Part shown: positions 6,913 to 61,978 of the stretch, piece after piece | How positions within the stretch are numbered: the first letter of the stretch is position 1 | Layout: each line of letters starts with the position of its first letter | From: Niastella koreensis GR20-10 | Lineage (GTDB): Bacteria > Bacteroidota > Bacteroidia > Chitinophagales > Chitinophagaceae | Direction: 5' to 3' | NCBI RefSeq assembly: GCF_000246855.1 | Contig: NC_016609.1 | Location: forward strand, 3,906,001 to 3,970,000 | Length of the DNA: 64,000 bases | Translations under genes and position numbers: made by a program | The notes under the pieces: model-generated | What the model saw: the letters and a program-made list of their open reading frames with translations, nothing else | Told to the model about the DNA's origin: nothing | The model's database searches: none

Positions 6913-7646
6913 ATGAAAATGTCCCTGCTATGTTGCAATGCATGGTAATAGACGACGAACCCCTTGCCATTCAGCTGCTGGTGAACCACATCGGCAAAGT
7001 GCCTTTTTTACAACTGGCCGGCACCTTTAACAACCCCATGGAGGCTTTGCTCCACATTAACACAAACCCCATCGACCTCATTTTCCTGGATATTCAAATG
7101 CCCCAGTTAAACGGCGTACAGTTTATGCAATTACTGCAAAACCGCGCCCAGGTAATTGTAACCTCTGCGTATGACAAATACGCCATCGATGGGTTTGAAC
7201 ACAATGTGGTGGACTATATGATAAAGCCCATTGCGTTTGAACGATTTTACAAGGCCGCTGAAAAGGCTTATAACCTGAAAAACCCGGGCCAGAAGGCAGA
7301 ACAACCTAAAGACGCCTACCCTGCCACAGGCGGTTACATTTTTGTGAAGGTGGAAACCAAGATGGTGCGGGTAGAGCTGGACGATATTTTATTTATAGAA
7401 GGGCTGAAGAACTATGTATCCATTCAAACAAAAACCCAGCGCATTATTACCCTGCAGGTAATGAAGCAGCTGGAAGAAATATTGCCACCCAATCGCTTCG
7501 TACGGGTGCACAAGAGCTACATTATTGCGCTGGACAAGATCACTTCCATCGAGCGCCAGGAGATCACGATCAAAGACCGCATTATTCCTATTGGGATCAC
7601 TTATCAGGAGCAGTTCTTTAAACTACTGGAGACGAGGAAACCCTAG
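6909..7646 (+). CDS. LytTR-family DNA-binding response regulator (second copy)
   Basis: A 245-residue response regulator with receiver residues 'VIDDEP', phosphoacceptor Asp in 'FLDIQMP', 'VTSAY' and 'MIKPI', followed by a LytTR domain ('GGYIFVKVETKMVRVELDDILFIEG', 'NRFVRVHKSYIIAL'). The LytTR recognition region is almost unchanged from the first copy, so both may bind related operators. Divergence is concentrated in the linker and in receiver surface residues, as expected if the two kinase-regulator pairs have been insulated from each other. Its TAG stop (7644-7646) forms the first word of the palindromic element at 7644-7744. Confidence 0.93.
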   Translation: MNENVPAMLQCMVIDDEPLAIQLLVNHIGKVPFLQLAGTFNNPMEALLHINTNPIDLIFLDIQMPQLNGVQFMQLLQNRAQVIVTSAYDKYAIDGFEHNVVDYMIKPIAFERFYKAAEKAYNLKNPGQKAEQPKDAYPATGGYIFVKVETKMVRVELDDILFIEGLKNYVSIQTKTQRIITLQVMKQLEEILPPNRFVRVHKSYIIALDKITSIERQEITIKDRIIPIGITYQEQFFKLLETRKP

Positions 7647-7744
7647 TAGTGAGTTGTGAGTTGTCAGTTGTGAGTGGGTTCCCGACTGTTCAGAAGTCTA
7701 AAAAATCGCGAGCTCACTCACAACTCACTACTGACAACTCACTA
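7644..7744. repeat. Intergenic palindromic word-repeat element A
   Basis: The left side is made of TAGTGAG/TTGTGAG/TTGTCAG words and leads into GTGAGTGGGTTCCCGAC (7670-7686). The right side mirrors it (AATCGCGAGCTCACTCAC, 7704-7721, then CAACTCACTACTGACAACTC). It fills the whole gap between two convergent genes, and the TAG stop codons of both genes are its outermost words. The core arms recur in element B (37724-37814). It could fold into a long hairpin acting on both converging transcripts; that role is inference. Confidence 0.8.
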
Positions 7745-8812
7745 TTTAATAAACACTATCGTACTGGGATTAATTGCCGGTGAAGTTGAGAAGTTAAACT
7801 TCTTATTACCATTCTTATCAAAGCAAAATACCTCGCCTGAAGTTTTGTAATCTTTTGCATCGGTAACGTATACATCGCCATTGGCAGGATCTACATTCAC
7901 ATTATACGGGTTCATTACTTTGGTGCCATCGGTAACGAAGTTGGCGCTCACCTGGGAAAAATCGGTGGTGCTTAATTTACGTACGGTTGCTACGCCATAA
8001 TAACTGGCCGCGGCATACAGGGCATTGTTATAGTATTTGATGCGGCCTACTGCGGTATCAGCTACTTTTACAACTGAATTGGTGGCAGTGCTTACTTTAA
8101 CCAGTCTTGATTTATACAAACCGGCATAATCAGGTCCACAGGAGATGTACAAATTACCAGCCTCATCTGAAGTCATATAGCCGGGGTTATAGCCTACGGT
8201 TATTTTTTTAGTTTCGGTCATGGTGGTCAGGTCTACTATAGAAACCGTTGAATCGCTCACGGCATTCAATGCACCGGAAACAGCCACATATAATTTATCG
8301 CCCAGGATAGCCATTTGCTCCAGGTTGGGCCCGATGTTGATGTCCTTTTCAATAGCCAGGCTGGTGGTATCGATCACTGAAACTTTACCATCCCAGTTAG
8401 ACACCAATACTTTGCCTTTATAAGACGTTACATAACGTGGCTGACGGTTTACATTGCCGGCGGTTTTAAAACTGATGTTGGTGATCTTTACACCTGTATG
8501 CGCATCGGCAACAGTTACCACCCCTGATTCATTCATTACAATATACAGTTTGGTACCATAGATCAACATGTCGTTACCCGTATCGCCCAGTCCGGTACCG
8601 CCGTTTGTTTTGGCGAAAAAATCGGTACTGCTAACGCCGGTAGTGTTATTGTAATACGAAAGCATGCTGTTGTTTTGCTGCCACAGTCCTTCGCTCAATA
8701 CATATACCCCGGTGGTAACTTTTGGCGCCGACGAATCGTCCTTATCTTTTTTACACGATGTTATACCAATTACCAATAGGGATACAAACAAAATGATCCT
8801 GTTGTGTTTCAT
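7742..8812 (-). CDS. btuG: BtuG-like beta-propeller surface lipoprotein (YncE/DUF5074 type)
   Basis: A 356-residue lipoprotein: signal with lipobox ITSC (Cys20), a Lys/Asp/Ser-rich linker, then repeated propeller blades (for example 'GTGLGDTGNDMLIYGTKLYIVMNESGVVTVADAHTG', 'PRYVTSYKGKVLVSNWDGKVSVIDTTSL', 'GYMTSDEAGNLYISCG'). It starts 9 bases after the stop of the BtuB-like receptor and lies under the same cobalamin riboswitch. In Bacteroides, BtuG is a surface propeller that binds vitamin B12 tightly and caps BtuB; operon position and fold support that role here. The gene symbol rests on context, since B12-contact residues were not checked. Its TAG stop is part of repeat element A. Confidence 0.8.
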   Translation of the reverse strand: MKHNRIILFVSLLVIGITSCKKDKDDSSAPKVTTGVYVLSEGLWQQNNSMLSYYNNTTGVSSTDFFAKTNGGTGLGDTGNDMLIYGTKLYIVMNESGVVTVADAHTGVKITNISFKTAGNVNRQPRYVTSYKGKVLVSNWDGKVSVIDTTSLAIEKDINIGPNLEQMAILGDKLYVAVSGALNAVSDSTVSIVDLTTMTETKKITVGYNPGYMTSDEAGNLYISCGPDYAGLYKSRLVKVSTATNSVVKVADTAVGRIKYYNNALYAAASYYGVATVRKLSTTDFSQVSANFVTDGTKVMNPYNVNVDPANGDVYVTDAKDYKTSGEVFCFDKNGNKKFNFSTSPAINPSTIVFIK

Positions 8813-8821
8813 TGCAATGAA

Positions 8822-10828: not shown

Positions 10829-10884
10829 TCAATTGTGTTTGGGCACAACAATGGAACAAACAGTAAAAACAATAAGCGGAGAGA

Positions 10885-10901
10885 CAAAAGCAGGCCTTTT
10901 G
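10885..10901 (-). promoter_or_regulatory. Hairpin between riboswitch and btuB (possible expression platform)
   Basis: CAAAAGGCCTGCTTTTG (minus strand) is a near-perfect hairpin between the aptamer and the start codon. Its AGGCCTGC could compete with the end of the aptamer, which reads CCTGCC. Regulation by sequestering the start region is inference; no U-run follows it on the minus strand. Confidence 0.35.
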
Positions 10902-10939
10902 TTTTTACCAGCTTCTTCCACGAAAGCCGATAAATAAGT

Positions 10940-11145
10940 TGGCTATGGCAGGTCTTCTGGCTCGTTTCATTTGTTCAACACCTTCCCGCCCTTCCAATGG
11001 GGACAGTGGTTGTAGATTGAACACTTGTGGATGCTGACAGATCCACGAAACTTACAGCTGCGGGACAGCCCCGGAGTTACACCGGGTTCCCTTTTAATCC
11101 AAATCCCCGTTTAAGTGGGGACCGGAACCATAACTGGCGCAAATG
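10940..11145 (-). ncRNA. Cobalamin (adenosylcobalamin-type) riboswitch
   Basis: Reading the minus strand, the region holds the conserved cobalamin aptamer landmarks in order: 'CCGGTGTAACTCCGGGGCTG', 'CCCGCAGCTGTAA', the P6/L6 region, and the 3' strand 'AGCCAGAAGACCTGCC'. The end is closed by pairing with 'GGTTCCGGTCCCC' type sequence at the 5' side. It lies in the 5' leader of the BtuB-like gene, where B12 riboswitches repress uptake when cobalamin is plentiful. The aptamer identity is clear by eye; exact ends are approximate. Confidence 0.93.
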
Positions 11146-11183
11146 TAGGGTATTTTCGGTATACGCTGGTGAATTACAGAGAA

Positions 11184-11414
11184 GTTGACAGGTTAACAGG
11201 TCGACAAGTTAACACGTTGACGGGTTTACACGTTGACAGGTTAATGGGTAAGAAGGAGGTTTTGGATGTATAAGGGAGGAGGTTGATAGAGTTGACGAAG
11301 TTGATAGGGTTGATAAAGGTATTAAACGCTGTATTCCTTGTTAACTTGTTAACCTATCAACTTATCAACTATCCCTCTATCAACTTCGTCAACTTTATCA
11401 ACCCTATCAACCTA
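11184..11414. repeat. Intergenic palindromic word-repeat element C (GTTGACAG words)
   Basis: From 11184 the plus strand reads eight successive 8-base words: GTTGACAG, GTTAACAG, GTCGACAA, GTTAACAC, GTTGACGG, GTTTACAC, GTTGACAG, GTTAATGG. After a purine-rich centre come GTTGATAGA-type 9-base words (11282-11318). Then follows the complementary arm (GTTAACTT, CTATCAAC, TTATCAAC, TTCGTCAAC, TTTATCAAC, CCTATCAAC) up to 11414. The last word supplies the TAG stop of the phosphatase gene. The element can form alternative large hairpins because the words are interchangeable. Confidence 0.8.
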
Positions 11415-12980
11415 CTTCGAAACGCGTACTTCAAATTTATCTTTCAAGCAAGTATAAGGATCAACCACCTCATACACAGTTTTAACAGCAGTGGGTTTTA
11501 CCGTAATTGTCCTGGTAGTGGCTGTGCCTTTGTTCCATTTGTAGGTACCAATAAAAGAAGCTTTCAGGGTGGCGGTTTCGCCTTTTTTGATGGTGATGAT
11601 CTCGTTCTTGTTTACGTCTTTCATCATTACAAAGTGGTCCCTGATCAGGCCGTCGGAGCAGATCCATTTCAACACCAGGCGGTTCTCATTTACTTCAAGC
11701 ATGGAGGCGCCGCCGAGTTCGTTGTATGAATAATAAAAGGCATCGTGCGGATAGGTAGCCTGCCGGGCACCCATGGCGCCGGCTGAACCGGTTACCACAT
11801 ACACTGTTCCCCGGTTGGCCGAATCTTTTATATACGGACAGGAATTGGCGCTGCCATCATACAATGCAGTGGAAGAGCTCAGGTTATGCCGGGCTGCATT
11901 GAAAGTGGCTTCCATTCCATAATGCCCGTTCATCAATCGCGATCTTTCGTACAAATGACTGTGTCCGCAAATGATGAGGTCAACCCCATAGCGCTCGAGA
12001 ATGCGAATGAAGTTCTCTCTTATTTTTACCAGTTCTGTCTCCTGGTCGCTGTTATGCGAGCCCATGGTATACGGCGGATGGTGCCAGTACGCCACAACCC
12101 AACCTCTTTTGGTATTGTGAAAGGCGTCGAGGTCTTTTTTTATCCATTGCACCTGGGCGCCCAGGGTATCGTACAGGCGGGTTTCTTTATCTTCCTTTCC
12201 GTAGGAGTCAATAGACAGGAAGTGCACATTGCCGATATCAAATGAATAATAGGCCTGGCTGCCGGAAGCTACGCCCCCACACTCCCCATTGGTGGGCATG
12301 GAGAAGTTCTGGTAATAGGCAATATCATGGGTTGATTGCGCCGTTGCTTTATACTGATCAAAATCATTGTAGTCGTGGTTACCGGGTGCGGGAAACACAG
12401 GATAATGCTTCAGCAGGTTATCTTTATAAATATTGAAGAATTTCTCCTGGAACTCGGGGTCCTGGCCGGAAAAATAAGCATTATCACCCAGCAGGATCCA
12501 GGCATCCATCGGTTTATTATCCAGGTACTTTATCACCTGGTCGCGTACCGAGCGCTGGTTAACGGAGTTGTTGCCGCAATCGCCAAACACGCCGATGCGG
12601 TAACTGCCTTCTTCACCGGGAGGCGGCAGGGTAACAAAATAATTGTCGGTTCCTTTTTGCAACGTATCACCTGCGCCCCCTCCAATGGCATAATAGTATT
12701 TGGTACGGGGAGTAAGACCAGTGATGGTAACCTTGTGCTCAAAAGTGAGCATTGGGTCCGAGGCCAGCCCGGTCAATTTTTTATCATCGGCGCTATAGTT
12801 CACCACGCTTCTTTGTAAGGCATCGGTACGCCAGCGGATAACAATACTGGTACTGCTGGCCACCTGTAAATAGGGCCCGCGGATCAAATGCGCCTGCACG
12901 TCGATCTTTCTTTGTGCGCTGCTGATGAAGGGCGCCAGCAACCCGGCCAAAGCCATCCCGGCAATTAATTTCGTTTTCAA
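11412..12980 (-). CDS. Purple acid phosphatase-like metallophosphoesterase
   Basis: A 522-residue secreted enzyme: signal peptide (1-22, ending SSAQ), a fibronectin-like N-terminal domain typical of purple acid phosphatases (about 30-118, 'RGPYLQVASSTSIVIRWRTD'), then the calcineurin-like catalytic domain with metal ligands in GDCG (133-136), GDNA (165-168), GNHDY (200-204), 'WHHPPYT' and 'CGHSHLYERS'. About 65 C-terminal residues form a small Ig-like domain ('KKGETATLKASFIGTYKWNKG'). It is expected to release phosphate from organic phosphoesters outside the cytoplasm. The start is a TTG directly after the TAA stop of the upstream peroxidase gene; it gives a proper lysine-rich signal peptide, while the next ATG (codon 9) would remove it. 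The two genes are therefore tightly coupled. Confidence 0.87.
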   Translation of the reverse strand: MKTKLIAGMALAGLLAPFISSAQRKIDVQAHLIRGPYLQVASSTSIVIRWRTDALQRSVVNYSADDKKLTGLASDPMLTFEHKVTITGLTPRTKYYYAIGGGAGDTLQKGTDNYFVTLPPPGEEGSYRIGVFGDCGNNSVNQRSVRDQVIKYLDNKPMDAWILLGDNAYFSGQDPEFQEKFFNIYKDNLLKHYPVFPAPGNHDYNDFDQYKATAQSTHDIAYYQNFSMPTNGECGGVASGSQAYYSFDIGNVHFLSIDSYGKEDKETRLYDTLGAQVQWIKKDLDAFHNTKRGWVVAYWHHPPYTMGSHNSDQETELVKIRENFIRILERYGVDLIICGHSHLYERSRLMNGHYGMEATFNAARHNLSSSTALYDGSANSCPYIKDSANRGTVYVVTGSAGAMGARQATYPHDAFYYSYNELGGASMLEVNENRLVLKWICSDGLIRDHFVMMKDVNKNEIITIKKGETATLKASFIGTYKWNKGTATTRTITVKPTAVKTVYEVVDPYTCLKDKFEVRVSK

Positions 12981-14828: not shown

Positions 14829-14869
14829 CTGCTATTAAAAGCGGCAAAGAAACGACTTGAATGTTATGG

Positions 14870-16045: not shown

Positions 16046-16071
16046 ACGTAGGCAATAAAGTTACCGAAAAA

Positions 16072-16221
16072 CGCTGAACGCCGAAAGCTTAACGCTAAAT
16101 GCTGAAGACTTAACGCTCCACGCCATATTCCTGCATCCATTTGAGTTCAGAGTTCCAAGTTCCGAGTTCTTAGCTCCGGGTTTCGGGGTAACCTGGAACC
16201 TGGAACTTGGAACCTGGAACT
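16072..16221. repeat. Intergenic word-repeat element D (CTGGAAC and CGCTGAA words)
   Basis: Two blocks lie between the GH92 and YcaQ-like genes. The first (16072-16122) repeats GCTGAACGC/GCTTAACGC/GCTGAAGAC-type words. The second (16144-16221) has GAGTTCAG-AGTTCCAA-GTTCCGAG on the left and CCTGGAAC-CTGGAAC-TTGGAAC-CTGGAAC on the right, forming an inverted repeat around a G-rich centre. The architecture matches the other elements of this window, with a different vocabulary. Confidence 0.72.
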
Positions 16222-16239
16222 AATTTCTGCTTATTGTAT

Positions 16240-18495
16240 TTAGTGGTCAATGCCCCACTCTTTATTAGGCTTCGGCCCCATTTCCAGCTCCAACGTACCT
16301 CCAGCCATTAACTGTTCATGGGTGAACCAGGGTATATTAAGCGGCTGGCCGTTGAATTTGGCGCTTTGGATGTATTTGTTGATTACGGAACAGTTTTTTG
16401 CGTTTACATGAAACTGTTTGCCGCCGGGCAGATCGATGCTGATCTTTTCAAACAAGGGGCTGCCAATGGTGTATACCGGGTTGCCAGGAGTAATGGGATA
16501 AAACCCCATAGCCGAGAATACCACGAAGGCCGACATACCGCCGCCATCTTCATCGCCGGGAATGCCAAAGATGTTGTCTTTAAACCATACATCGAGCAAA
16601 AAGCGAATGCGCTTCTGCGTTTTCCAGGGACTGTTGGTGAAATTATACAAATAAGGGATGTGAAAGCCCGGTTCGTTGCCCATGGAATATTGTCCTACCA
16701 ATGCGGTAGCATCCGGGAATTTTGCCCAGAACTCGTATTTGCTTCTATCCAGTCCTTCGTGAAATAACTGGTCGAGCTTTTGTTCAAAACCAGCTTTACC
16801 GTTCATCAGCGATACCAGTCCCTTTATATCCTGCTGCACCTGCCACAGGTAGGTCCAGCCGTTGTTTTCATCATAATAATCCCGGCCGCCCATACCGCCA
16901 TCGAATTTGGGGTCTATTTCCACCCAATGGCCTTTGTCGTCTTTGGGCAGGAACATACCCCGGCCGGGGTGCCAGAGATTTTTATAGTTTACTGCATGGG
17001 CATTGAAGGTTTTATAGTCGTCGTTTTTGCCAAGTTCTTTAGCCAGCTCGCCTACCGCCCAATCGTCGTAACTACCGGCAAGGGTAACGGCTACGGCCTG
17101 CCGCTTTTCAAAGGGATGTACGGAGGTATTGGTTTCCACCGCGCCTTTTTGCAAAGCGGGGAAATAACCATTGGTGCGGTAATAATCATCCAGCGGCGTG
17201 GAAGGCCCATTGCGCCAGGGGATCATAGTGGCCTGGGTAGCGTTTTTCTTCATGCCGGCATAGGCTTCCAGCACATCAAAATGCCGGAGCCCCTTACGAT
17301 AGCCATCCAGGATCATTACCGATGAATGAAACCCGTTCATACAGGCATGGTCGCCAAATAATACGGGGAAGGTAGGCATCCAGCCGCCCTGCCGGTACAT
17401 AGTCACATATGAGTTCAGGATATCTTCTTCCATGGCGGGGTTCAACACCGTGCGTAAAGGATGTTGCGCCAGGTAGGTATCCCAGGTCCAGTCGTCCACA
17501 TAAAAAGGGCGGTTGTTTTCTATAGTATGCACTTTATTATCGAAGCCGCTGAAGTATTTTCCATCTTCGGTAATATCAACCAGGCGTTCGTAACAGCGAT
17601 ACAACGCGGTATAGAAGGAACGCTTCTGTGCTTCGGTTCCACCGGTAACCTGGATCTGGCCCATAACTTTGTTCCAGGCAGTTTCTCCCAGTTGCTGTAA
17701 CTGTTCAAAACCGGTATTGGCCAATTCGTTATCATAATTCTTTTTCGCCTGTGCGGCACTGACATACGAAATGGCGTATTTAAATTCAATCACCGCCGGT
17801 GCGCTGGCGGGGAAACCGGCCCAGGCTTTTATGTCCTTACCGCCAACACTGTTCGCCGTTTGCAGGGCGCCGGCCTTTACCGTACCCGCCGTAACATCGG
17901 TATTGAACTGGCCGTAAACATACACTTTTATATTACCATGGTAGGTTTCCATGCCGGTGAACTCACGGGTGGCAGTAAAGTTGAATTCGCTTTCCCCATT
18001 ATTGTAAGGCGCAAACAGGATGTTTTTGGCGGAATTGGCGGGAAAGGTAAACCGGTAATACCCTGCTTTTTTGCCGGGGGTGAACTCTACCGTGATGTTA
18101 TCGTTTACCAGCCAGGTGCTGTAATACCAGGGCCGGGTCACTTCCAGGTCGTGGTCGTACAACATCGGTTCTTTCCAACTGCCCAACACCGGCTGTTTGA
18201 TGGTGGGTTTAATAGCGAACACTTCGCCAAGGCGGTGCGATACAATGTTCAGCGGAAAACTGGCAATCTGATCGTCGAGATAATCGGCCCGTTGCGGGTT
18301 CATGCGGATCATCTGGTTAGGTTGCTGGATCGTTGGCCGGGTGGGTTGCAACAAAGCGCCCACATTCCCGATGCGCGGATCAACATACCGGGTATTGCTT
18401 TCCGGAACGGTGATGCCTGTTGATATAGGGACATTTTGCGCCCAACTGTTCAGGGCTGCTACCTGTAGTAATAAAAATAGTCCTGTACGTTTCAT
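16240..18495 (-). CDS. GH92-family exo-alpha-mannosidase
   Basis: A 751-residue exported enzyme with signal peptide (1-19, ending SWAQ), the GH92 N-terminal beta-sandwich (about 30-270) and an (alpha/alpha)6 barrel. Family hallmarks are visible: 'YVDDWTWDTYLAQHPL', 'GGWMPTFPVLFGDHACMNGFHSSVMI', 'MGNEPGFHIPYLYNF' and, near residue 640, 'GIPGDEDGGGMSAFVVFSAMG'. GH92 enzymes are calcium-dependent inverting alpha-mannosidases, mostly alpha-1,2, that trim N-glycans or yeast mannan; linkage here is unknown. A single GH92 without SusC/D or other mannosidases suggests a scavenging role. A TAGATTTA box ends 4 bases before the ATG, so the mRNA may be leaderless. Confidence 0.92.
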   Translation of the reverse strand: MKRTGLFLLLQVAALNSWAQNVPISTGITVPESNTRYVDPRIGNVGALLQPTRPTIQQPNQMIRMNPQRADYLDDQIASFPLNIVSHRLGEVFAIKPTIKQPVLGSWKEPMLYDHDLEVTRPWYYSTWLVNDNITVEFTPGKKAGYYRFTFPANSAKNILFAPYNNGESEFNFTATREFTGMETYHGNIKVYVYGQFNTDVTAGTVKAGALQTANSVGGKDIKAWAGFPASAPAVIEFKYAISYVSAAQAKKNYDNELANTGFEQLQQLGETAWNKVMGQIQVTGGTEAQKRSFYTALYRCYERLVDITEDGKYFSGFDNKVHTIENNRPFYVDDWTWDTYLAQHPLRTVLNPAMEEDILNSYVTMYRQGGWMPTFPVLFGDHACMNGFHSSVMILDGYRKGLRHFDVLEAYAGMKKNATQATMIPWRNGPSTPLDDYYRTNGYFPALQKGAVETNTSVHPFEKRQAVAVTLAGSYDDWAVGELAKELGKNDDYKTFNAHAVNYKNLWHPGRGMFLPKDDKGHWVEIDPKFDGGMGGRDYYDENNGWTYLWQVQQDIKGLVSLMNGKAGFEQKLDQLFHEGLDRSKYEFWAKFPDATALVGQYSMGNEPGFHIPYLYNFTNSPWKTQKRIRFLLDVWFKDNIFGIPGDEDGGGMSAFVVFSAMGFYPITPGNPVYTIGSPLFEKISIDLPGGKQFHVNAKNCSVINKYIQSAKFNGQPLNIPWFTHEQLMAGGTLELEMGPKPNKEWGIDH

Positions 18496-18508
18496 CCGAT
18501 AAATCTAT
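18496..18508 (-). promoter_or_regulatory. -7-like promoter box abutting the GH92 start codon
   Basis: On the minus strand TAGATTTA is followed by TCGG and then ATG. It matches seven of eight bases of the Bacteroidota -7 consensus TAnnTTTG. Because transcription normally begins about 5-7 bases after this box, the transcript would start at or next to the start codon. Confidence 0.4.
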
Positions 18509-18617
18509 CACCGCGCGTATAATAAAGTCTTAATAAACCATTAACAGGATCATTTTCAGCTATTAAGTGAGTCAATTTTATTGAATTGGTGTTTTTACCG
18601 GGTGGGGATTCTATTAA

Positions 18618-18631: not shown

Positions 18632-18682
18632 CGAGCCCGCCATTTCTCCGCGGTTACTTTGTGTCTGCAAATTGATAATACA

Positions 18683-19999: not shown

Positions 20000-20019
20000 A
20001 ATTCTTCAATTCACTTTAT

Positions 20020-37713: not shown

Positions 37714-37723
37714 AGTATTAATT

Positions 37724-37814
37724 TAGTGAGTAGTGAGTAGTGAGTGGGTTCCCGACATTCGGGAGAACTGAACAATCGCGAGTTCACTCACTACTGACTA
37801 CTGACTACTGACTA
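37724..37814. repeat. Intergenic palindromic word-repeat element B
   Basis: TAGTGAG words lead to GTGAGTGGGTTCCCGAC (37740-37756), identical over all 17 bases to element A. A short centre and the mirror arm AATCGCGAGTTCACTCAC (37774-37791) follow, then CTACTGA words. Its last word is the TAG stop of the susD-like gene. It lies inside the operon, between susD and the first lyase gene, so it could attenuate downstream transcription or stabilise the susCD message; that is inference. Confidence 0.8.
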
Positions 37815-39611
37815 CCAACCATTATTCTGAGTAACTTCCTGCTGATTAGATAAACTATTCATCCAACTTAACGGGAAAGGTCGCAAATAAAATTTAGAAT
37901 CGCCGGTTGTCAATTGGGTTTGCACGCCGCCGGTGATGTGGGTAACATCCCAGTTGTATTTAAGTACGCGGTCTGCTAACTTATGGGTGCGTTGCAGGTC
38001 GTTCCAGCGTGGCGCTTCGCCAAACAATTCCAATGCCCTCTCGTCAAGAATATCATCGATGGTAACGGTTCCTGTTTTCTGTAAGGAGCCGGGTATTTTT
38101 TCAGCTCTTGTTCTTACTTTATTCAAGTAGAGTAATGCATTGGCATTGTCACCCTTTTTTACGGCTGCTTCGGCGGCTATCAAACAGGTTTCGGCCAGGC
38201 GGTACAGGTAAATATCGCGGGTGCCGGAACCGGCATTGCTTTCATTGTAAATGGTGTTGGCATCCTTGAACTTCCAAACCGGTAACCAGGCCCGGGTAGT
38301 GGAATTGGTGGTTTGATAGGCGTTCTTGTAATAATCATCCTTCGTCCAGTCGGTGGTATCGCCAACGGGGTAATTGTATACTACATACTTTACGGTTGTT
38401 CTATCGGCATCGCTCCATTGTTTGTATTTGGCATCAGTAGGCACCGGCAAATAAATAACGGTATCGCCCAAGGCAAATTTTCCTGCTACGGCACTGGTGC
38501 ACTGGAACCAGTCCTTACCACGATTGGTGCCATCGACAGCCGTTGCCGGCGTACCATTAACCGGACTCATAAAGGTTACTTCGGCTCGGCGGTCTTTTTG
38601 CCAGTCGTATAATAAATACGCCAGTTTGGTGGGAATGCCGGCCACATCATCATTGCTGTAAATGGCGCTTTTCGACAACCCGGCCCAGCCTTCGCGATAC
38701 GGAAACAAATACCATTTGGGCCAGTTGTTGGTATTGTTATTCGCCGTGGTGGAAAAACCTATAGAGAACAGGATCTCGTTATTGGTTTCATTGGCCTGCC
38801 GGTGTACCTGGGCAAAATCACTTACCAGGGAGTAACCGGAGTTATTGATCACATCTGCTGCATCGTTATACGCATTCGTAAAATCATTGGCATCGGCATA
38901 CGGTTGATACCCCCTGGTGAGGTACACCAGCGCCCGCAGGTGTTTGGCTGCGCTTGCCGACATTCTGCCAAAATCTGTTCCTGTTGGTTTCCCGGGTAAG
39001 ATGGCAATGGCATCGGTAAGGTCTTTCAGGATCTGCGTATAAAACGCCGCGCCATCTGCTATTTCCGCAGTGTTGGTGGGCGCCATGGGCTCCGACGTTA
39101 TTAATGGCGCCCGGCCCCAGTTACGCACGATCTCGAATAAATACAGGGCGCGTAAGGCCTTTGCCTCTGCTACTCTTTTATCACGCACCGCAGGATCGAT
39201 GCCATCGGGATCGGCATCCTTGGTGATTACCGCCGGCGCCCGGTCAATAGCAGCATTTACGTTCTTCAACGCCGCATACAACATGGTCCAGTAATTGGCG
39301 ATGCTGCCGTCGTTTGAGGTTAACGTTACTGTATACTGGTTTAACGGGCTCACCGCACCGGGATAATTTTGTGTTACTATATCGGTGCCCAGCTGCGTTA
39401 CGTTTTGGTAGTCTTTGCTGTTATAGATCGTTCGCAGGTTACTGTAACAACCAATCACCAGGCTTTCATAGCCAGCCCTGGTAGCGAAATACTGTTCGGC
39501 CGACTGGCTGCTGTAATTCACTTCGGCCAGGAAATCTTTTTTGCAGGAAGTGGTGGCAACCACTATCGTGAGCGCCAGCATTCCTTTTATCATGTATTTA
39601 TTGATGCACAT
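37812..39611 (-). CDS. susD: SusD/RagB-family nutrient-binding lipoprotein
   Basis: A 599-residue surface lipoprotein. The signal has lipobox TTSC (Cys23) followed by KKDFL. The SusD N-terminal TPR region and the RagB/SusD C-terminal domain are clear ('KALRALYLFEIVRNWGRAPLITSE', 'DIYLYRLAETCLIAAEAAVKKGDNANALLYLNKVRTRA', 'DDILDERALELFGEAPRWNDLQRTHKL'). It forms the lid of the SusC importer encoded 18 bases upstream and binds the oligosaccharides released by the surface lyase. A start at the second Met (codon 7) would give a more usual signal peptide; both are possible. Confidence 0.95.
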   Translation of the reverse strand: MCINKYMIKGMLALTIVVATTSCKKDFLAEVNYSSQSAEQYFATRAGYESLVIGCYSNLRTIYNSKDYQNVTQLGTDIVTQNYPGAVSPLNQYTVTLTSNDGSIANYWTMLYAALKNVNAAIDRAPAVITKDADPDGIDPAVRDKRVAEAKALRALYLFEIVRNWGRAPLITSEPMAPTNTAEIADGAAFYTQILKDLTDAIAILPGKPTGTDFGRMSASAAKHLRALVYLTRGYQPYADANDFTNAYNDAADVINNSGYSLVSDFAQVHRQANETNNEILFSIGFSTTANNNTNNWPKWYLFPYREGWAGLSKSAIYSNDDVAGIPTKLAYLLYDWQKDRRAEVTFMSPVNGTPATAVDGTNRGKDWFQCTSAVAGKFALGDTVIYLPVPTDAKYKQWSDADRTTVKYVVYNYPVGDTTDWTKDDYYKNAYQTTNSTTRAWLPVWKFKDANTIYNESNAGSGTRDIYLYRLAETCLIAAEAAVKKGDNANALLYLNKVRTRAEKIPGSLQKTGTVTIDDILDERALELFGEAPRWNDLQRTHKLADRVLKYNWDVTHITGGVQTQLTTGDSKFYLRPFPLSWMNSLSNQQEVTQNNGW

Positions 39612-42971: not shown

Positions 42972-43056
42972 TATTTAATAATGAATGTTGACGTGAAGAC
43001 CTCGTCGCGGACTTTTTCCTTACTTCAATATTCGACATTCAACATTCGACATTTTG
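42972..43056. repeat. Intergenic word-repeat element E (AATGTCGA/ATGTTGAA words)
   Basis: Read on the minus strand after the regulator's stop: AATGTCGA-ATGTTGAA-TGTCGAAT-ATTGAAGT, a centre, then an opposing GTCAACATTCATTATT arm. The same vocabulary (ATATTGAATGTTGAAGTGAAG) is found in elements G and H. It fills the region just 3' of the hybrid regulator gene. Confidence 0.68.
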
Positions 43057-43059
43057 TAT

Positions 43060-46000
43060 TTACTTTCCCGGTTTTCTCACACTAAATTGGGCACCAAAGG
43101 TTTTACGATATTTCTTAATATAATCAGAGGGGTTCATCCCAAACACTTTATGGAATTCGGCGCGGAAGAATTTGATGTCGTTAATGCCAACGCGTAAGGC
43201 TGTTTCGCTTACATTATAATTTGTATTAATAAACAGTTCGGCCGCCTTGCGCAGGCGGATGAAGCGGATGAATGATTTGATGGAGAGCCCCGAAACCGAT
43301 TTTACTTTCCGGAACAGGTTGCTGCGGCTCATACCTATTTCGGCCAGCAATACTTTCAGGTTAAAACTGTCATCGTCGAGGTGGCTTTCCACAATGGCGA
43401 TACAGCGTTCCAGGAATTCCTTGTATTCCTGCGACACCTTCTGATCGGTATGGTTGAGGGTGATGGCGTTGAAGAAATAATGCTGCAGCACGGTGCGGGC
43501 CTTGAGCAAGCTGGCCACACGGGCCACCAGGATATCTTTATCAAATGGTTTAGTGATGTAATCGTCGGCGCCACCTTCAACGCCTTTCAACCGTACTTCG
43601 GCCGACGTACTGGCGGTGAGCAAAATAACCGGGATGTGCTGCAGGGCCGCATCTTCTTTGATCTTTTTACAAAGATCGATGCCGCTCATGCCCTGCATCT
43701 GGATATCGGCGATCACCAGGTCGGGCAGGTGTTTGTGCGCCAGGCTCAGGCCATTTTCCCCGTCAGCTGCCAGCAGCACCTGGTAGGTATTTCTAAACAG
43801 CCCGGAAAGATATTGCAGGATCCGTTCATCGTCATCTATCAGCAGGATCGATTTCTTTTCGGTAACCACTGCCTCCAGCGGTTCGCCATCCGGCTCCCCT
43901 GATTCGGTGGATGCGCTTAATTCATCATCCAGCGTCAGTTCATCCAGTAATACAGGTTGAACCGTCACATCATCCAGGATCACATCCGTTCCAAAATGCT
44001 GAACACCTTTAAGCAGACTAAGCGTAAACGTAGTGCCCTCACCGGGTTTGCTTTCAAAACTGATCTTGCCTTTATGCCGGGCAGTTAGGTGCTTTACCAG
44101 ATACAAGCCAATGCCAAAACCCTTTTGGGCGGTAATGGCCGAACCGGAAGCCCGGTAGAATTTCTCAAACAACTGATCGCCGGTTTCCTTGTCAATGCCA
44201 ATGCCTGTGTCCTGCACCTGGAACACTACTTCATTGTCTGTTTCCCGCACCTGTAAAACAATGCGGCCGCCTTCCGGCGTATACTTACATGCATTCGACA
44301 ACAGGTTATATAAGATAATGCCCAGTTTTTCCCGGTCGGCATACACCTCCGGGTGTTGGGGGCAATCATATTCATAGGTTATCTTTTTGGCTTTCGCCTG
44401 CTGTACAAAACACAGGTAAATATCGTGGGCCAGGGCATACACATCCTGCTTTGCCGGCCGAATGGTATCCATGCCGCTTTCCGCCTTGCGGAACAGCAAC
44501 AACTGATCTACCAGGCTCAACATGCGGCGGGCATTCCTGTATACGGTTTGTAATTCGCCATCCGGTTTTTCCGGCGACTCGGGTTTGCGGCTCAACACAT
44601 CTTTAAGCGGATTGATGATGAGCGTCAACGGCGTTCTGAACTCGTGCGAAACATTGGTAAAGAAGGTGAGTTTGTTTTCATTGATGGTGCGTTCGCGTTC
44701 ATTGAGCACCTGTTCCTTTTCCCGTTCTGCCTTTTCCCGTTCCAGTTCTACCTTTTTATTTTCTGCATCCAGGTGCGCAATAGCCACTTCGTATTTTAAC
44801 CGGGTTTGCCTGCTGCGATACCCCCACCAGGCATACAACAGGGAAGCAACCGCACAACCATATAAAAGATACGCTAACCAGGTACGGTACCAGGGTGGCA
44901 GTACGGTAATGCGCAGCTTTACTTCCTCTTTATTCCAGTTGCCATTTACATCGGTGCTTTTTACGCGGAACACATAACTGCCTTCGCCCAGGTGCGTATA
45001 ATTGGCGGTGCGCAGGTTGCCGGTATAGTTCCAGCCCCTGTCCCACCCTTCCATATAATACGCATACGTTATTTTACCAGGCGTGGCATATTCGGGCGCT
45101 ACATAGGTAAACGAAAAAACCGCCTTACTGTAAGGCACTTTCAATTTATCGGTAAAGGGTACCGATTGATTATCTACTGTAATACCGGTGAAGTACACCT
45201 GCGATGGATGCGGTGTTTGCTGAATGCTTTCGGGATTAAAAATATTGAATCCTTTTATGCCACCAAATAACAGTTCGCCCGAACGCAGCGCCAGCGAAGA
45301 ATTGGGGTTGAACTGGTTGCTTTGCAAACCGTCGCCCTGGTAGTAATTACGAAATGTTTTGGCGCCAATGGCAAAACACGACATACCATTAAACGTGCTC
45401 ATCCACAAATTGCCTTTTCCGTCTTCCTGCATGTTCAGCACCGCATTGTTACACAACCCTTCGGCAGTGGTAAACCGGGCGGCTATTTTACCCTGGGCAC
45501 GGTTGAACAACACCAGTCCGCCGCCTTCGGCACCTACCCAGAAATTGCCGGCCCTATCCTCTACTATACAGCGCACGCTTTTACCAATGTTGTAATAAGT
45601 ATGTTGTTTGTTTACACGGTCTATTTTTATCAACTGGGTAAAGTTGCCAGCCCACAATACGCCGTTGCGGTCTTCTTTCAGGGCAAACAATTCCGACAGG
45701 TTATCAAAATATTCAAAGCGGTCGGTTGTTTTGTTATACCGGTACAACGCGCCTTTTATGCCGCCTTCCTGCAGCGTGGTTGCCCACAGCGTTCCTTCAT
45801 GATCTACACACAACTGGTACACCATCTTGTTCTCGGCGTTATTATAGTTTGAGTTGAAACATTTGTACCGGCGGAAAGTATGGGTTTGTTGATTGTACCG
45901 GTTTATGCCGCCCCAATAGGTACCGATCCAAACAGCACCGGTGTGATCGGCAGCAATACTCGTGATGAAATTATTGCTGATGGTTGCTGCATTACCGGGG

Positions 46001-47178
46001 TCGTTCTTAAAATTGATGAACGAACTTCGCTTTCTATCCCACAGGCTTATCCCACCAAACTCGGATCCGATCCAGATCTTCCCATCGGGCATTTCATAAA
46101 AAGCCGACACGTAACTACTCACCAGGCTGTTGCTGTTGAGCGGGTCGTGCGCAATAGTCGTAAAGCGGCTTTTTTGTCCGTCAATGATATTGATGCCGCC
46201 ACGTTGTGAACCCAGCCATACGCGGCCTTCGCGGTCAACAAAAACAGTATTGAAATTTTCATTGCTCAGGCTGTTTACCCGGCCATCGGCTACCAGGTGC
46301 GTTACCTGCGGGGTGGCGGGGTCATAAACTTTTACGCCATTGTCTTTGGTCACCATCCATAAACGGTGCTGGTGATCCAGCGCAAAATCTGCCACCTTAT
46401 CAGTAGCCAGTTGCGGATCGTATTGATCTAATGCACGGGTATAGGTATTGGTGTTTATATCATAAGTATAAATGCCATTATTAGTGCCTACCCATAACCG
46501 ATCGCCATCGGGAAAAATGCGGAAGGAAGCCCTGAGCGTTTCGTTTACCAGTTGCAGTTGCCGGGTATTGGGGTTGAACAAACAAAGTCCGCGCGATACT
46601 ACAAATACCCACACTCTTTTTTTATCATCGATGCGGATACATGCGGCGGAATAGTTAGCGGTTGTAACGCCGTTGGCCACCAGGGGTATCTGTACAGCTA
46701 CATCATTCTTATACATCAACAACCCATCCGTTAAACTCGCGATCAGCATGGCGCCATCTGCCGTTCGTTTGAGGTCTTTTGTTTCTGTGCTAAACGGGCG
46801 GGCTGCCTTTTCGCCATAAGGCAGGAACCGGAGCCGGGAAAATTTACCGGTAGCGGTTTCATAAATACTAAGCCCCGTATTGGTGCCCACCCATACATTG
46901 CCGGCGGCATCTTCCTGGATGGCGTGAATGCTGTTATCTATCAGCGAGCTGGTATCGTTAAACCGGTTACGGAATACTTTGAATTCATAGCCATCGTAGC
47001 GATTCAACCCATCGTAGGTACCGAACCAGATAAACCCCTTACGGTCCTGGTAAATAGCGCGGATGGTATTATTGGAAAGCCCCTGCTCAATGCCCAGGTA
47101 AGACAATGGCGGATTACCGGCAAAAGCAGGTTGTATTGCTACAAGTAAAACCAGTATACACTTTATAACATACCTCAT
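43060..47178 (-). CDS. Hybrid two-component system regulator (one-protein HTCS)
   Basis: A 1372-residue regulator typical of Bacteroidota polysaccharide loci. In order: signal peptide (1-20), two seven-bladed Reg_prop beta-propellers forming the periplasmic sensor (about 25-680, with repeated 'DRKGFIWFGTYDGLNRYDG'-type blades), Y_Y_Y domain (about 690-755), one membrane helix (about 765-785), coiled-coil, HisKA with His845 in 'FTNVSHEFRTPL', HATPase (about 955-1065), receiver with Asp1158 in 'VIADIQM', and an AraC-type HTH (about 1270-1360). HTCS proteins sense oligosaccharide released from the target polymer and activate the adjacent susC operon. It is encoded directly upstream of susC on the same strand and divergent from the GH39-like gene. 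Confidence 0.96.
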   Translation of the reverse strand: MRYVIKCILVLLVAIQPAFAGNPPLSYLGIEQGLSNNTIRAIYQDRKGFIWFGTYDGLNRYDGYEFKVFRNRFNDTSSLIDNSIHAIQEDAAGNVWVGTNTGLSIYETATGKFSRLRFLPYGEKAARPFSTETKDLKRTADGAMLIASLTDGLLMYKNDVAVQIPLVANGVTTANYSAACIRIDDKKRVWVFVVSRGLCLFNPNTRQLQLVNETLRASFRIFPDGDRLWVGTNNGIYTYDINTNTYTRALDQYDPQLATDKVADFALDHQHRLWMVTKDNGVKVYDPATPQVTHLVADGRVNSLSNENFNTVFVDREGRVWLGSQRGGINIIDGQKSRFTTIAHDPLNSNSLVSSYVSAFYEMPDGKIWIGSEFGGISLWDRKRSSFINFKNDPGNAATISNNFITSIAADHTGAVWIGTYWGGINRYNQQTHTFRRYKCFNSNYNNAENKMVYQLCVDHEGTLWATTLQEGGIKGALYRYNKTTDRFEYFDNLSELFALKEDRNGVLWAGNFTQLIKIDRVNKQHTYYNIGKSVRCIVEDRAGNFWVGAEGGGLVLFNRAQGKIAARFTTAEGLCNNAVLNMQEDGKGNLWMSTFNGMSCFAIGAKTFRNYYQGDGLQSNQFNPNSSLALRSGELLFGGIKGFNIFNPESIQQTPHPSQVYFTGITVDNQSVPFTDKLKVPYSKAVFSFTYVAPEYATPGKITYAYYMEGWDRGWNYTGNLRTANYTHLGEGSYVFRVKSTDVNGNWNKEEVKLRITVLPPWYRTWLAYLLYGCAVASLLYAWWGYRSRQTRLKYEVAIAHLDAENKKVELEREKAEREKEQVLNERERTINENKLTFFTNVSHEFRTPLTLIINPLKDVLSRKPESPEKPDGELQTVYRNARRMLSLVDQLLLFRKAESGMDTIRPAKQDVYALAHDIYLCFVQQAKAKKITYEYDCPQHPEVYADREKLGIILYNLLSNACKYTPEGGRIVLQVRETDNEVVFQVQDTGIGIDKETGDQLFEKFYRASGSAITAQKGFGIGLYLVKHLTARHKGKISFESKPGEGTTFTLSLLKGVQHFGTDVILDDVTVQPVLLDELTLDDELSASTESGEPDGEPLEAVVTEKKSILLIDDDERILQYLSGLFRNTYQVLLAADGENGLSLAHKHLPDLVIADIQMQGMSGIDLCKKIKEDAALQHIPVILLTASTSAEVRLKGVEGGADDYITKPFDKDILVARVASLLKARTVLQHYFFNAITLNHTDQKVSQEYKEFLERCIAIVESHLDDDSFNLKVLLAEIGMSRSNLFRKVKSVSGLSIKSFIRFIRLRKAAELFINTNYNVSETALRVGINDIKFFRAEFHKVFGMNPSDYIKKYRKTFGAQFSVRKPGK

Positions 47179-47184
47179 ATAATG

Positions 47185-47353
47185 GTGAGCTGTAAGCTGT
47201 AAGCTGTAAGCTGTGAGCTGTAAGCTGTGAGCTGTAAGCCGTAAGCTGTAAGCGAATACAGGCTACAAGCTTCAGGCTGCAAGCCATCGCGGCAAGCTTT
47301 AGCGTAGTGGACTGTTTGCCGTCTGCCTTTTGCCTTAGGCCTTATGCCTTCAG
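47185..47353. repeat. Intergenic word-repeat element F (AGCTGTA heptamers)
   Basis: About nine head-to-tail 7-base words AGCTGTA/AGCTGTG (47187-47252) are followed by GCGAATACAGGCTACAAGCTTCAGGCTGCAAGCC. A block of 8-base words then follows: TGCCTTTTGCCTTAGGCCTTATGCCTT. The segment AATACAGGCT...GCTGCAAGC resembles the AAGCTGCAAGCAAATACAGG module of element H. It lies between two divergent genes, next to the start of the regulator gene, unlike most other copies, which sit at gene ends. Confidence 0.7.
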
Positions 47354-48926: not shown

Positions 48927-48932
48927 GGACCT

Positions 48933-49478: not shown

Positions 49479-49485
49479 GTTTAAT

Positions 49486-49527: not shown

Positions 49528-50014
49528 TGAAAATACTGTATAGCAGGAGTACTTGTATAGCGGCAAAGGATATGCCATGGGAAGTTGATCAGTTAACCAG
49601 GTTGATAGCGCTGATAAAGAGCGAATACAATTATTGAATATCGAATGTCCAATATTGAATGTTGAAGTGAAGAAAACGGGTTAAAGCCAAAAGGTTAAAG
49701 GCTAAAGCTAAAACCGGAAGTGTATTTACCTTTCTTCCGCCAGCCGGCGGATTTCGGCTTTCAGCCTGTATTTGCCTGCTCCGCCGCCGGGCGGATGCGG
49801 CTTGCAGCTATTCTCCCACTGCCCACTGCCTTCCACTGGCTTCCTTTTTGCGTGCACCTTTATAAAACTATCAGTTATGAATATCGAAGTGAAAGCACCG
49901 AAAAACAATCCATTGGAAAAATATCCACAGCCGCCTTATCCCGAACAGGAACAACAAATGCCTGGTTAATCGAATTATCACATTATCGAATTATCACATT
50001 GGCATTTTCCCTTC
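49528..50014. other. Gene-free stretch with repeat element
   Basis: Contains element G and, after it, a short frame (49877-49969, starting MNIEVKAPKN) that I do not count as a gene because it has no recognisable content. A short AT-rich direct repeat (ATCGAATTATCACATT twice, about 49970-50000) lies just before the next gene's end. Confidence 0.5.
49581..49844. repeat. Intergenic mosaic word-repeat element G
   Basis: A chain of modules seen separately elsewhere: GTTGATCAGTTAACCAGGTTGATAG (vocabulary of element C), GAATATCGAATGTCCAATATTGAATG (of E and H), GGGTTAAAGCCAAAAGGTTAAAGGCTAAAGC, then AGTGTATTTAC, GGCTTTCAGCCTGTATTTGC and TTCTCCCACTGCCCACTGCC. From about 49630 on it is homologous, in opposite orientation, to element H at 61797-61978, with one insertion of a CCGCC-rich segment near 49740 and another near 49785. 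Confidence 0.85.
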
Positions 50015-50347: not shown

Positions 50348-50363
50348 GACATTCGTCAGTAGA

Positions 50364-50371
50364 CAAATGTA
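50364..50371 (-). promoter_or_regulatory. Consensus Bacteroidota -7 promoter element
   Basis: TACATTTG on the minus strand fits TAnnTTTG exactly. It lies 16 bases before the ATG of the gene at 50015-50347. No clear TTTG is found at the usual -33 distance. Confidence 0.55.
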
Positions 50372-50539
50372 AATAGCCCATTACCGGCTATTTTTACTTT
50401 TTATGTATAACTGCTATAAAAGAGGCTGCTGTGGGAGGATACGTATTGGATATAACACAAAATAATATGCCTGTGCGATAAAGGTAACCAATCGAACTAA
50501 AGGAACCTAAGTATATTTTTTCTTTAACATACCCGTGGC

Positions 50540-51199: not shown

Positions 51200-51233
51200 A
51201 ACTACTTCTGTTTAAATAATAAAAACTTGCTGT

Positions 51234-52355: not shown

Positions 52356-52357
52356 CA

Positions 52358-52414
52358 ATGCAGCAAACAAGAAACAGTATCGATGATATCTGGGGGATGC
52401 CCCGCAAACCCTGA
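52358..52414 (+). pseudogene. Tiny frame, possible N-terminal remnant of an oxidoreductase
   Basis: An 18-codon frame starts 2 bases after the upstream stop and reads MQQTRNSIDDIWGMPRKP then TGA. The 'SIDDIWG' piece faintly resembles the start of some molybdopterin oxidoreductases (DIWGxRTPY). Evidence is thin, and it may be chance or a small leader peptide. Confidence 0.2.
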
Positions 52415-52428
52415 TCGCCTCGGCCTGA

Positions 52429-54606: not shown

Positions 54607-54615
54607 ATACAGTAT

Positions 54616-57285: not shown

Positions 57286-57294
57286 AACTAAGGT

Positions 57295-59127: not shown

Positions 59128-59211
59128 GATTTTACTTTTTGTTAAAAGGTTGAAAATAATATGCCAGTAACAATCATTACGGGCATAGTTATTCCATCAA
59201 AACCAACTCTT

Positions 59212-60756: not shown

Positions 60757-60766
60757 ATAAATAATT

Positions 60767-61255
60767 TTATTGTTTTTTTATTACACTTATAACTCCGTTC
60801 CTTTCCATATACACCCGTTCAATTTTACTCAGATCATCTGTCAGTGCCGATTCCCTGATCCCCTGCATGATATTCTCCTTACACACCTGCGCCCGCTTCA
60901 TATTGTCGTCGATGAAATGGCCATCTTTAAACAGCAACATTTTCTTACCTTCTATAAAGTTGCCCAACCTTTCGTTACGGGAAACAAGCGCACCCAGTAA
61001 CCGGTGAATCAATACGATCACCAGGCAACAGATAATAACGGGAACAAACGGCGAAGCCCCCACTACGGTCCTGCTTAAAACGGCGCCCAGCAATATGGTA
61101 ATGATGTTATCAAGTGGGGTATGCAACCCAAAGGATCGCCTGCCTGAAATGCGAATGAGTGCAAGCGCCAGTACAAACACTACAATGCCCCGCATACTCA
61201 TTTGAAGGGCCGTGAGGTCTTTACCCTGTCCAAACAATTGTAAAACCCAATCCAT
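60767..61255 (-). CDS. YetF/DUF421-family membrane protein
   Basis: A 162-residue protein with three N-terminal membrane helices (about 18-90: 'GIVVFVLALALIRISGRRSFG', 'NIITILLGAVLSRTVVG', 'PVIICCLVIVLIHRLLG') and the conserved cytoplasmic DUF421 domain ('NERLGNFIEGKKMLLFKDGHFIDDNMKRAQVCKENIMQGIRE', 'KIERVYMERNGVISVI'). The family is linked to stress and spore-associated genes in Bacillus, but its activity is not established. It is the first gene of the putative five-gene trehalose operon. Confidence 0.88.
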   Translation of the reverse strand: MDWVLQLFGQGKDLTALQMSMRGIVVFVLALALIRISGRRSFGLHTPLDNIITILLGAVLSRTVVGASPFVPVIICCLVIVLIHRLLGALVSRNERLGNFIEGKKMLLFKDGHFIDDNMKRAQVCKENIMQGIRESALTDDLSKIERVYMERNGVISVIKKQ

Positions 61256-61325
61256 ATAAACACCACTTCAAAAAACGAACCATGCGCCCCGGAAAGGTTT
61301 TTGCAATTAAAATAGAAAAGAGCCT

Positions 61326-61808
61326 ATGCAAACCATTGAAGTCGTTATAGAATCGCCCCGTGCTACCCAGGCCAAGTTCAAGTTTGATCCCAAATCAAAA
61401 CTCTTTAAACTCTCCCGGCTGCTGCCATTGGGCATGGTGTTCCCCTACGATTTTGGATTTATTCCCGGTACGGTTGGTGAAGATGGCGATCCGCTGGATG
61501 CGCTGGTACTGTCTGAGTTTGGCAGTTTTACCGGGGCTCACCTTACCTGCCGCGTTATTGGCGCATTGAAAGCCGTACAGGGAAAAGAAGGCAAGAAAGG
61601 CGTTCGCAACGACCGGTATTTTTGTATACCAGCCGGTTCCATCACCTATTCAACCATCGAAAACATCGATCAACTGGGTAAGGAGCACCATAAACAGATC
61701 GAAGAATTTTTTATCAACTACAATAAAGTAGATGGAAAGATATTCAGTTGCCTGGGAACTGCGGATGCGGAGAAGGCGATTAAGATGATAAAAAAAGGCA
61801 GTAGGTAG
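61326..61808 (+). CDS. ppa: Family I inorganic pyrophosphatase (short type)
   Basis: A 160-residue cytoplasmic enzyme that hydrolyses pyrophosphate to phosphate. Active-site residues are visible in 'YDFGFIPGTVGEDGDPLDAL' with metal ligands D53, D55 and D58, and 'KGVRNDRYFCIPAG'. It is shorter than E. coli Ppa (175 residues). The last residues, GSR and the TAG stop, are encoded by the first words of repeat element H (GGCAGTAGGTAGTAGG), so the C-terminus appears to have been shaped by that element. The start is the ATG at 61326, divergent from the DUF421 gene. Confidence 0.92.
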   Translation: MQTIEVVIESPRATQAKFKFDPKSKLFKLSRLLPLGMVFPYDFGFIPGTVGEDGDPLDALVLSEFGSFTGAHLTCRVIGALKAVQGKEGKKGVRNDRYFCIPAGSITYSTIENIDQLGKEHHKQIEEFFINYNKVDGKIFSCLGTADAEKAIKMIKKGSR

Positions 61809-61978
61809 TAGGCAATGGGAGAACAGCCACAAGCTGCAAGCAAATACAGGCTGAAAGCCGAAAGGTCAAAGCTTAAAGTAAATACACTTTCGGTTTTAGC
61901 TTTAGCCTTTAACCTTTTGGCTTTAACCCGTTTCTTCACTCAACATTCAATATTGGACATTCAATATTTAATATTTTG
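61797..61978. repeat. Intergenic mosaic word-repeat element H
   Basis: The reverse complement of element G over most of its length. Read on the minus strand: AATATTGAATGTCCAATATTGAATG, then GGGTTAAAGCCAAAAGGTTAAAGGCTAAAGC (identical to G over more than 30 bases), GTGTATTTAC, GGCTTTCAGCCTGTATTTGC and TTCTCCCATTGCCTACTACC. It starts within the last codons of ppa and fills the gap to the convergent DUF6496 gene. Confidence 0.87.

Follow-up and report, generated by a model that had tools for sequence, protein, structure and literature searches.

What are the short words, repeated in tandem, that fill at least eight gaps between genes in a 64,000-nucleotide stretch of the Niastella koreensis GR20-10 genome (positions 3,906,001-3,970,000 of a single contig of 9,033,684 bases; hereafter the window), and what do they do there? 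An original prediction, made from the letters of the window, described eight such elements (A to H) built from 7-9 base words, most with a facing arm of complementary words, and proposed a modular DNA element family, perhaps one used as an mRNA-end signal. In samples of this genome and its relatives, we found that the arrays draw on a restricted vocabulary, begin directly behind stop codons, have facing arms in half of the cases, differ between species at the same gene end and stand in gaps that hold fewer canonical terminators than expected. We read the elements as tandem heptamer repeats in an expanded form that uses many words and is bound to stop codons.

Arrays were detected as runs in which base i equals base i+p, with p of 6-10, and genes were called here from open reading frames and hexamer bias rather than taken from an annotation. 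Each of the eight predicted elements was found at or near its predicted position by reading of the sequence and in the TRF rows. A 464 kb sample, consisting of the window plus twenty 20 kb stretches, held 90 arrays with periods all of 7, 8 or 9, compared to 6 arrays in one order-3 Markov control, which places the tandem 7-9 base words beyond chance. A larger sample of 1.244 Mb (14% of the genome) contained 266 arrays with periods nearly all 7-9. Of these, 71 came from the contiguous 464 kb surrounding the window and 74 from 400 kb sampled elsewhere; the remaining 121 came from 380 kb picked around copies of element B, a part that is biased by this choice and is included in the stop-distance statistics. 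Extrapolation from the two unbiased parts (145 arrays in 864 kb) gives a genome total of approximately 1,500 arrays. Under a stricter score, the intergenic arrays of the 1.244 Mb sample had periods of 7 (109 arrays), 8 (64), 9 (9) and 11 (8) and none at 5, 6, 10, 12 or 13; those at 14, 16 and 21 represent multiples of shorter periods, and 2-4 arrays each fell at 3, 4, 18 and 20. Period 11 is the only other non-multiple period in excess in the N. koreensis sample, and in N. soli a run of CCTCACAGGGA 11-mers was seen in the gap upstream of an AlkZ-like gene (G004:C6, L133).

The arrays were tied to stop codons, a feature that is new here and absent from the original prediction. Their predicted confinement to the DNA between genes held for 246 of the 266 arrays and failed for the 20 that lay inside called genes. 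Array density per kb of gap was 3.15 in convergent, 1.67 in tandem and 0.52 in divergent gaps, and the occupied gaps numbered 37/123, 123/586 and 15/118, respectively. Mapping against stop codons, a check that the prediction had proposed, showed that in the 123 occupied tandem gaps the median distance was 3 bp between the upstream stop and the first array edge, and 80 bp between the last edge and the next start. An array was within 10 bp of the stop in 75 of these gaps, whereas random placement in the same gaps would give 24.8; in convergent gaps, by our own count and with no control, an array edge was within 10 bp of a stop in 32/37. Abutting cases used a TAG stop more often (45/98) than genes did in general (199/840). 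The 130 nt behind the stop also folded more strongly near an array, both in tandem gaps (mean z -2.25, n=68, versus -0.88, n=70, without an array) and in convergent gaps (-3.72, n=22, versus -1.64, n=54).

The words themselves were shared between loci. Consensus words of 264 arrays fell into 58 families, compared to 147-153 families in three sets of random words with matching make-up, and the units were degenerate within arrays. A complementary partner was present within 160 bp of 134/266 arrays versus 34/532 controls, which were drawn from the neighbourhoods of randomly chosen arrays. The type represented by elements A and B occurred at no fewer than about 40 distinct places in the genome (counted from 77 rows, with 40 of 72 candidates scored), some of them arms only, and by eye had a common core, GGGTTCCCGATT..TTCAGA..TCTGAA..AATCGCGAGC, that is palindromic except for a recurring C:C mismatch. 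This copy number excludes the possibility that the elements have no further copies in the genome and, together with the common core and the restricted vocabulary, bears out a modular, dispersed intergenic set. Two other sequences recurred in similar places. The octamer AAATACAG/CTGTATTT was enriched next to arrays and outside them (24/172 array gaps versus 18/397 other gaps), and another dispersed palindrome, GACCTGTAAGGTGC...GACAGGTC-like, recurred behind stops in N. soli and N. yeongjuensis and partly in N. koreensis, in the gaps behind C3606001|249, C3606001|214 and their orthologs.

To follow single gene ends between species, orthologous 3' gaps of this genome were compared with stretches of N. 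soli (G004), N. yeongjuensis (G009), N. sp. OAS944 (G002), N. caeni (G003) and a metagenome-assembled genome (MAG, G008). The closest relatives had 93, 88 and 88% identity at one protein, and no series of strains from a single Niastella species was found. The 137 syntenic gap pairs, which are not independent, held arrays in both members in 5 cases, in one member in 13 and in neither in 119; when non-syntenic pairs were added, 11 had arrays in both and 3 of these 11 shared words. An apparent sharing of occupancy (odds ratio 14, p 7e-4) was set aside, as the five syntenic pairs with arrays in both represent three loci and gap length is uncontrolled. Different words, or none, often stood behind the same gene in related species. 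Behind the purple acid phosphatase-like gene at window position 11412, N. koreensis carries GTTGATAGG words, which recur in a shorter set in the MAG; N. yeongjuensis carries GGAAGTAAGA words instead, and N. soli has other repeats. In all four genomes the stop on one side and the cobalamin-riboswitch flank on the other are the same. The cleanest gain was at gene 253, outside the window, where two relatives have TGA followed by (G/A)TTCCGAT and N. koreensis has TGA, approximately 115 bp of words and GTTCCGAT, with the C-terminal residues unchanged; by eye this empty site showed no target duplication of the kind expected for a MITE or IS-derived element. Most other compared gaps, among those listed, were replaced rather than cleanly filled. 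C-termini aligned to the end as often in pairs with an element at the stop (13/23) as in others (154/260).

The position behind stops extended to other genomes. In stretches of the five Niastella relatives, 13/30 tandem gaps with arrays had one within 10 bp of the stop (4.8 expected). Outside Niastella, 74 named loci (1.47 Mb, two from Longitalea) held 30 arrays at a slightly stricter score, with densities per kb of 0.31 in convergent, 0.16 in tandem and 0.02 in divergent gaps, and an array was within 10 bp of the stop in 8/18 tandem gaps (1.6 expected). Density there was low and in some genera near that of shuffled sequence (Pedobacter 2 arrays versus 2, Chitinophaga 16 versus 4). The pattern TAGTSAG x3 occurred 68 times in the N. 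koreensis genome, compared to 0 for its reversed control; among 395 Bacteroidota genomes it was found in 18, N. koreensis included, and the control in 12 by our own row count. Outside Niastella TAGTSAG is thus not specifically enriched, and we rejected the idea that one word could mark the phylum. Five 3 kb loci in distant Bacteroidota genomes (L284, L286, L287, L294, L299) each held several different heptamer words, so that mosaic heptamer assemblages reach well beyond Chitinophagaceae.

We then compared the arrays with canonical terminators, scored as hairpin-plus-T sites over each gap as a whole, word hairpin included, within strata of orientation and gap length. Canonical terminators were rarer in array gaps, with 28 observed versus 47.3 expected over all gaps (odds ratio 0.34, p 2e-5) and an odds ratio of 0.31 (p 0.001) in tandem gaps alone; convergent gaps were counted once per gene, which makes the all-gap p values optimistic in this genome and in the relatives. 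At the LytTR locus, N. soli has a T-run hairpin at the place of N. koreensis element A.

Taken together, these data led us to favour, tentatively and at a little below an even chance, the reading that the arrays are lineage-specific, short-lived 3'-end elements that act as non-canonical transcript ends. Arrays of degenerate 7-9 base words would come and go, and replace one another, immediately downstream of stop codons, and the transcribed word hairpin could form the transcript end of genes without a classical terminator, whether as a terminator without a U-tract, as a Rho-assisted end or as a block to 3' exonucleases. Arms may grow by slippage in steps of 7-8 bases, and new arrays may be copied in from other loci. 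The stop triplet contained in many Niastella words might serve as microhomology and, where an array inserts into the last codons of a gene, might also provide a fresh stop. The predicted mRNA-end signal is consistent with the position at stop codons and with the deficit of canonical terminators, and it goes further than either result establishes. It is less likely than not that the elements belong to a widespread Bacteroidota class of gene-end signals, in which word hairpins from a small dictionary replace intrinsic terminators at the very edge of the stop and hold this position even as species exchange the words.

Several observations weigh against a role at transcript ends. Half of the arrays have no facing arm. 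In the TAGTGAG family, facing words showed no covariation (p 0.36 and 0.23; 58 records, including duplicate readings of some elements), and this result therefore lends no support to base-by-base selection on pairing. Divergent gaps hold 22 arrays, and some elements lie in operon-like gaps, such as a 60 bp gain between two N. caeni genes. The terminator deficit was weak in the relatives (12 observed versus 19.6 expected, odds ratio 0.44, p 0.025; tandem gaps alone 0.50, p 0.21). When 23 element-bearing genes were set against element-free orthologs, 18 were without a canonical terminator on both sides, 3 had one only without the element, 1 only with it and 1 on both sides. Replacement of canonical terminators in orthologs was set aside on this null result (3 versus 1, p 0.63). 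In short gaps, moreover, an element leaves little room and may exclude a terminator for reasons of space.

Stop triplets within the words bear on the strongest rival. In 112 stop-proximal arrays, stop triplets per base were 0.112 on the gene strand and 0.061 on the other strand, compared to 0.060 in other 3' flanks. This corresponds to 436 versus 236 triplets, and permutation of the word columns gave 340 +/- 19 (200 permutations, maximum 386). All three frames were closed in 52/112 arrays on the gene strand versus 25/112 on the other. The gene's own stop matched the word in phase at 155/264 positions, compared to 27% in other phases, a figure inflated by the selection of arrays that reach the stop. 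In the Niastella relatives the bias recurred (92 versus 44, gene versus other strand), and outside Niastella it was absent (28 versus 50); the suggestion that arrays always supply stop codons thus holds in Niastella and fails outside it. In a few genes the words reach into the last codons and change the C-terminal tail. In one ortholog pair (gene C17|14 of G009 and gene C3606001|246 of G000) GGCAGTAG words form the last codons of one member and GGAAGTAAGAAGTAG words those of the other, and the C-terminal tails differ as a result.

These features are what would be expected if the arrays were tolerated insertions, functionless repeats that spread by themselves or arise by slippage and persist behind stops as the least harmful place, and this explanation is a real possibility. 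Insertions at the very end of a gene would be survivable because words with stop triplets close the reading frames, in line with the gene-strand enrichment in N. koreensis and its relatives and with words running into the last codons of some genes. The absence of covariation between facing words and the presence of an array on one side only in 13 of the 18 syntenic gaps with any array also favour it. Simple tolerance, however, predicts arrays distributed throughout the gap and not concentrated at the stop; outside Niastella the stop-triplet bias is gone but the position bias remains, and tolerance alone leaves the facing arms and the terminator deficit unexplained.

A further alternative is pure replication slippage with template switching, by which an array and its mirror would arise on the spot, independently at each locus, without copying between loci. 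The limitation of periods to 7, 8 and 9, with the few arrays at 11 and the multiples, fits such an origin. A preference for 7-base slippage is discussed by Mrazek as cited in PMC4679880, and PMC4060949, a general survey of such repeat patterns, considers how template switching can perfect palindromes. Words are nevertheless shared between loci far above chance and the A/B core is conserved across its many places; this common vocabulary and core count against slippage as the sole mechanism, which we consider unlikely. A DNA-level role, in which a nucleoid or recombination protein binds arrays phased at 7 bp (21 bp, or two turns of the helix, for every three words), would suit the strict periods but is highly improbable given the many different words and the ties of arrays to stops rather than to intergenic DNA at large.

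How far the elements resemble known systems could be judged from several precedents. STRR repeats of cyanobacteria are tandem heptamers in intergenic DNA. Like these and the long simple sequence repeats (LSSR), the elements consist of head-to-tail units of about 7 bases, intergenic and above chance; unlike them, they are not near-identical copies of a single word or a handful of words in each genome but degenerate units in 58 families. Mirrored arms, common cores, stop-codon position and exchange of words from species to species were not among the STRR/LSSR descriptions found. Heptanucleotides are reported to be the most abundant LSSR class in most genomes, as cited in PMC4679880. That paper describes TAACTGA heptamer direct repeats in Beggiatoaceae, Cyanobacteria and five Bacteroidetes and mentions larger heptamer-repeat assemblages for Bacteroidetes. 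As here, the TAACTGA repeats are tandem 7-mers, mostly intergenic and patchy across phyla, and in two Bacteroidetes they stand among other heptamer repeats, with shorter gaps lacking them in close relatives (PMC4679880). They differ in consisting of one word located just upstream of start codons in the main genome, with a single inverted case, whereas the elements here use dozens of words, half with facing arms, and lie behind stops. TAACTGA was absent among the 45 of 58 word families listed.

The P6b hairpin of the Nostoc trnL(UAA) intron is a second precedent. According to PMC4476775 and PMC3488679, its stem consists of degenerate heptamer repeats whose classes replace each other while the hairpin stays. 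A facing degenerate heptamer stem is likewise present here, as in A, B, C and D, and by our own comparison the class II motif NNTGAGT, as given there, also fits the A/B word. P6b is a single locus in the group I intron of a tRNA gene with two word classes, whereas the elements here occupy hundreds of loci behind protein genes, and the sole Rfam match in the window is a cobalamin riboswitch. The prediction that the elements are unlike any described pattern did not stand, since both intergenic heptamer arrays and heptamer-stem hairpins with class replacement are on record in these three papers; the match to described repeats extends only to this general kind. Among titles and the openings of abstracts, with most subscription journals outside the scope, we recognised no described Bacteroidota family of this design.

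REP/BIME/REPIN elements are also dispersed intergenic palindromes with a proposed role in termination or mRNA stabilisation; the elements here differ in their tandem 7-9 base words and many families. GTAG is present inside TAGTGAG arrays, which makes the REP tag, GTAG or CGTC next to a palindrome of 20-40 bp, uninformative. The genome has two Y1 transposase matches, and none of six A/B core or motif strings was found in their 3 kb loci, a search that covered the A/B type only; a REPIN/RAYT system was rejected for this lack of the A/B core beside both genes. TCGTGAA and ATTGCCG word arrays adjoin the only strong match of the two, a 146 aa gene at G000:C1:5623007-5623342 (L281). CRISPR was dismissed by direct reading of the sequence, the words being contiguous and without spacers. 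Intrinsic (U-tract) terminators are likewise hairpins behind stop codons, often in convergent gaps; they start about 30 bp behind the stop, whereas the elements start at it, and array gaps hold canonical sites less often than other gaps.

The eight elements of the window (Table 1) illustrate this range. Folding, as the prediction had suggested, showed a strong hairpin in each of A, B, the 11280-11412 part of C, and D, weak ones in H, E and G, and none better than chance in F or in the C stretch 11179-11336 (z -0.5). A facing arm, claimed for most elements, was found for about half of the arrays overall. The detector places A, B and C in contact with a stop, with E and D a short distance behind; G starts approximately 135 bp from a stop, and F, between two divergent genes, is an exception to the stop-codon position. 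The predicted sharing of modules was confirmed by eye: C-type and E-type words occur inside G, and H has a AAGCTGCAAGC/AAATACAGGCT-like stretch in common with F and an AAAGCC module in common with G. At gathering scores the riboswitch match (RF00174, 107.7 bits, window 10930-11147, minus strand) lies outside any element, upstream of a TonB-dependent receptor-like gene, and adjoins element C.

Table 1. Word-repeat elements of the window, with positions counted from its first base.
Element	Position	Strand	Words and structure	Surroundings	Fold z
A	7644-7745	+	TAGTGAG/TTGTCAG words, both arms and core	Convergent gap: LytTR response-regulator gene (+, stop 7644-7646) and DUF5074 gene (-, stop 7742-7744)	-7.5
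B	37722-37815	-	TAGTGAG/TAGTCAG words, core as in A	Overlaps end of gene 37812-39611 (-)	-4.1
C, inner part	11280-11412	-	GTTGATAGG-type 9-mers and GTTAACAAG-type 8-mers, hairpin	Abuts stop of purple acid phosphatase-like gene 11412-12980 (-)	-5.1
C, outer part	11179-11249	.	8-mer array GTTGACAG/GTTAACAC		
D	16143-16220	-	Facing arms of GTTCCAG/GAACTCG words	19 bp behind stop of GH92 gene 16240-18495 (-)	-4.0 (16126-16222)
D, second array	16070-16123	.	ACGCTGA-type words		
E	42972-43057	-	AATGTTGAATGTCG words	6 bp behind stop of gene 43060-47178 (-)	-1.4
F	47183-47353	.	Nine AGCTGTA words, then AGCTTGCAGG and TGCCTTA words	Divergent gap	-0.1
G	49579-49850	.	Mosaic of GTTGATAG/GTTAACC, ATTGAATGTTGAA, AAAGGTTAAAGCC, GCTTGCAGC and CACTGCC words	Convergent gap	-1.0
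H	61797-61983	.	Mosaic of GGCAGTAGG, CAAGCTGCAAGC, GAAAGCCGAAAGG, GCTTTAGCC and ATTCAATATTGGACATTC words	Starts, by eye, within last codons of pyrophosphatase-like gene 61326-61808 (+)	-1.7

Should the elements end transcripts, they would go some way towards explaining the mRNA ends of Bacteroidota genes without a classical terminator and would represent a signal whose letters turn over while its shape and position are kept. As tolerated parasites, they would be a clear case of sequence invading the space right behind stop codons, in Niastella with words that have built-in stop triplets. On either reading, they form a fast-evolving part of 3' untranslated regions that was missed by the Rfam families in the window.

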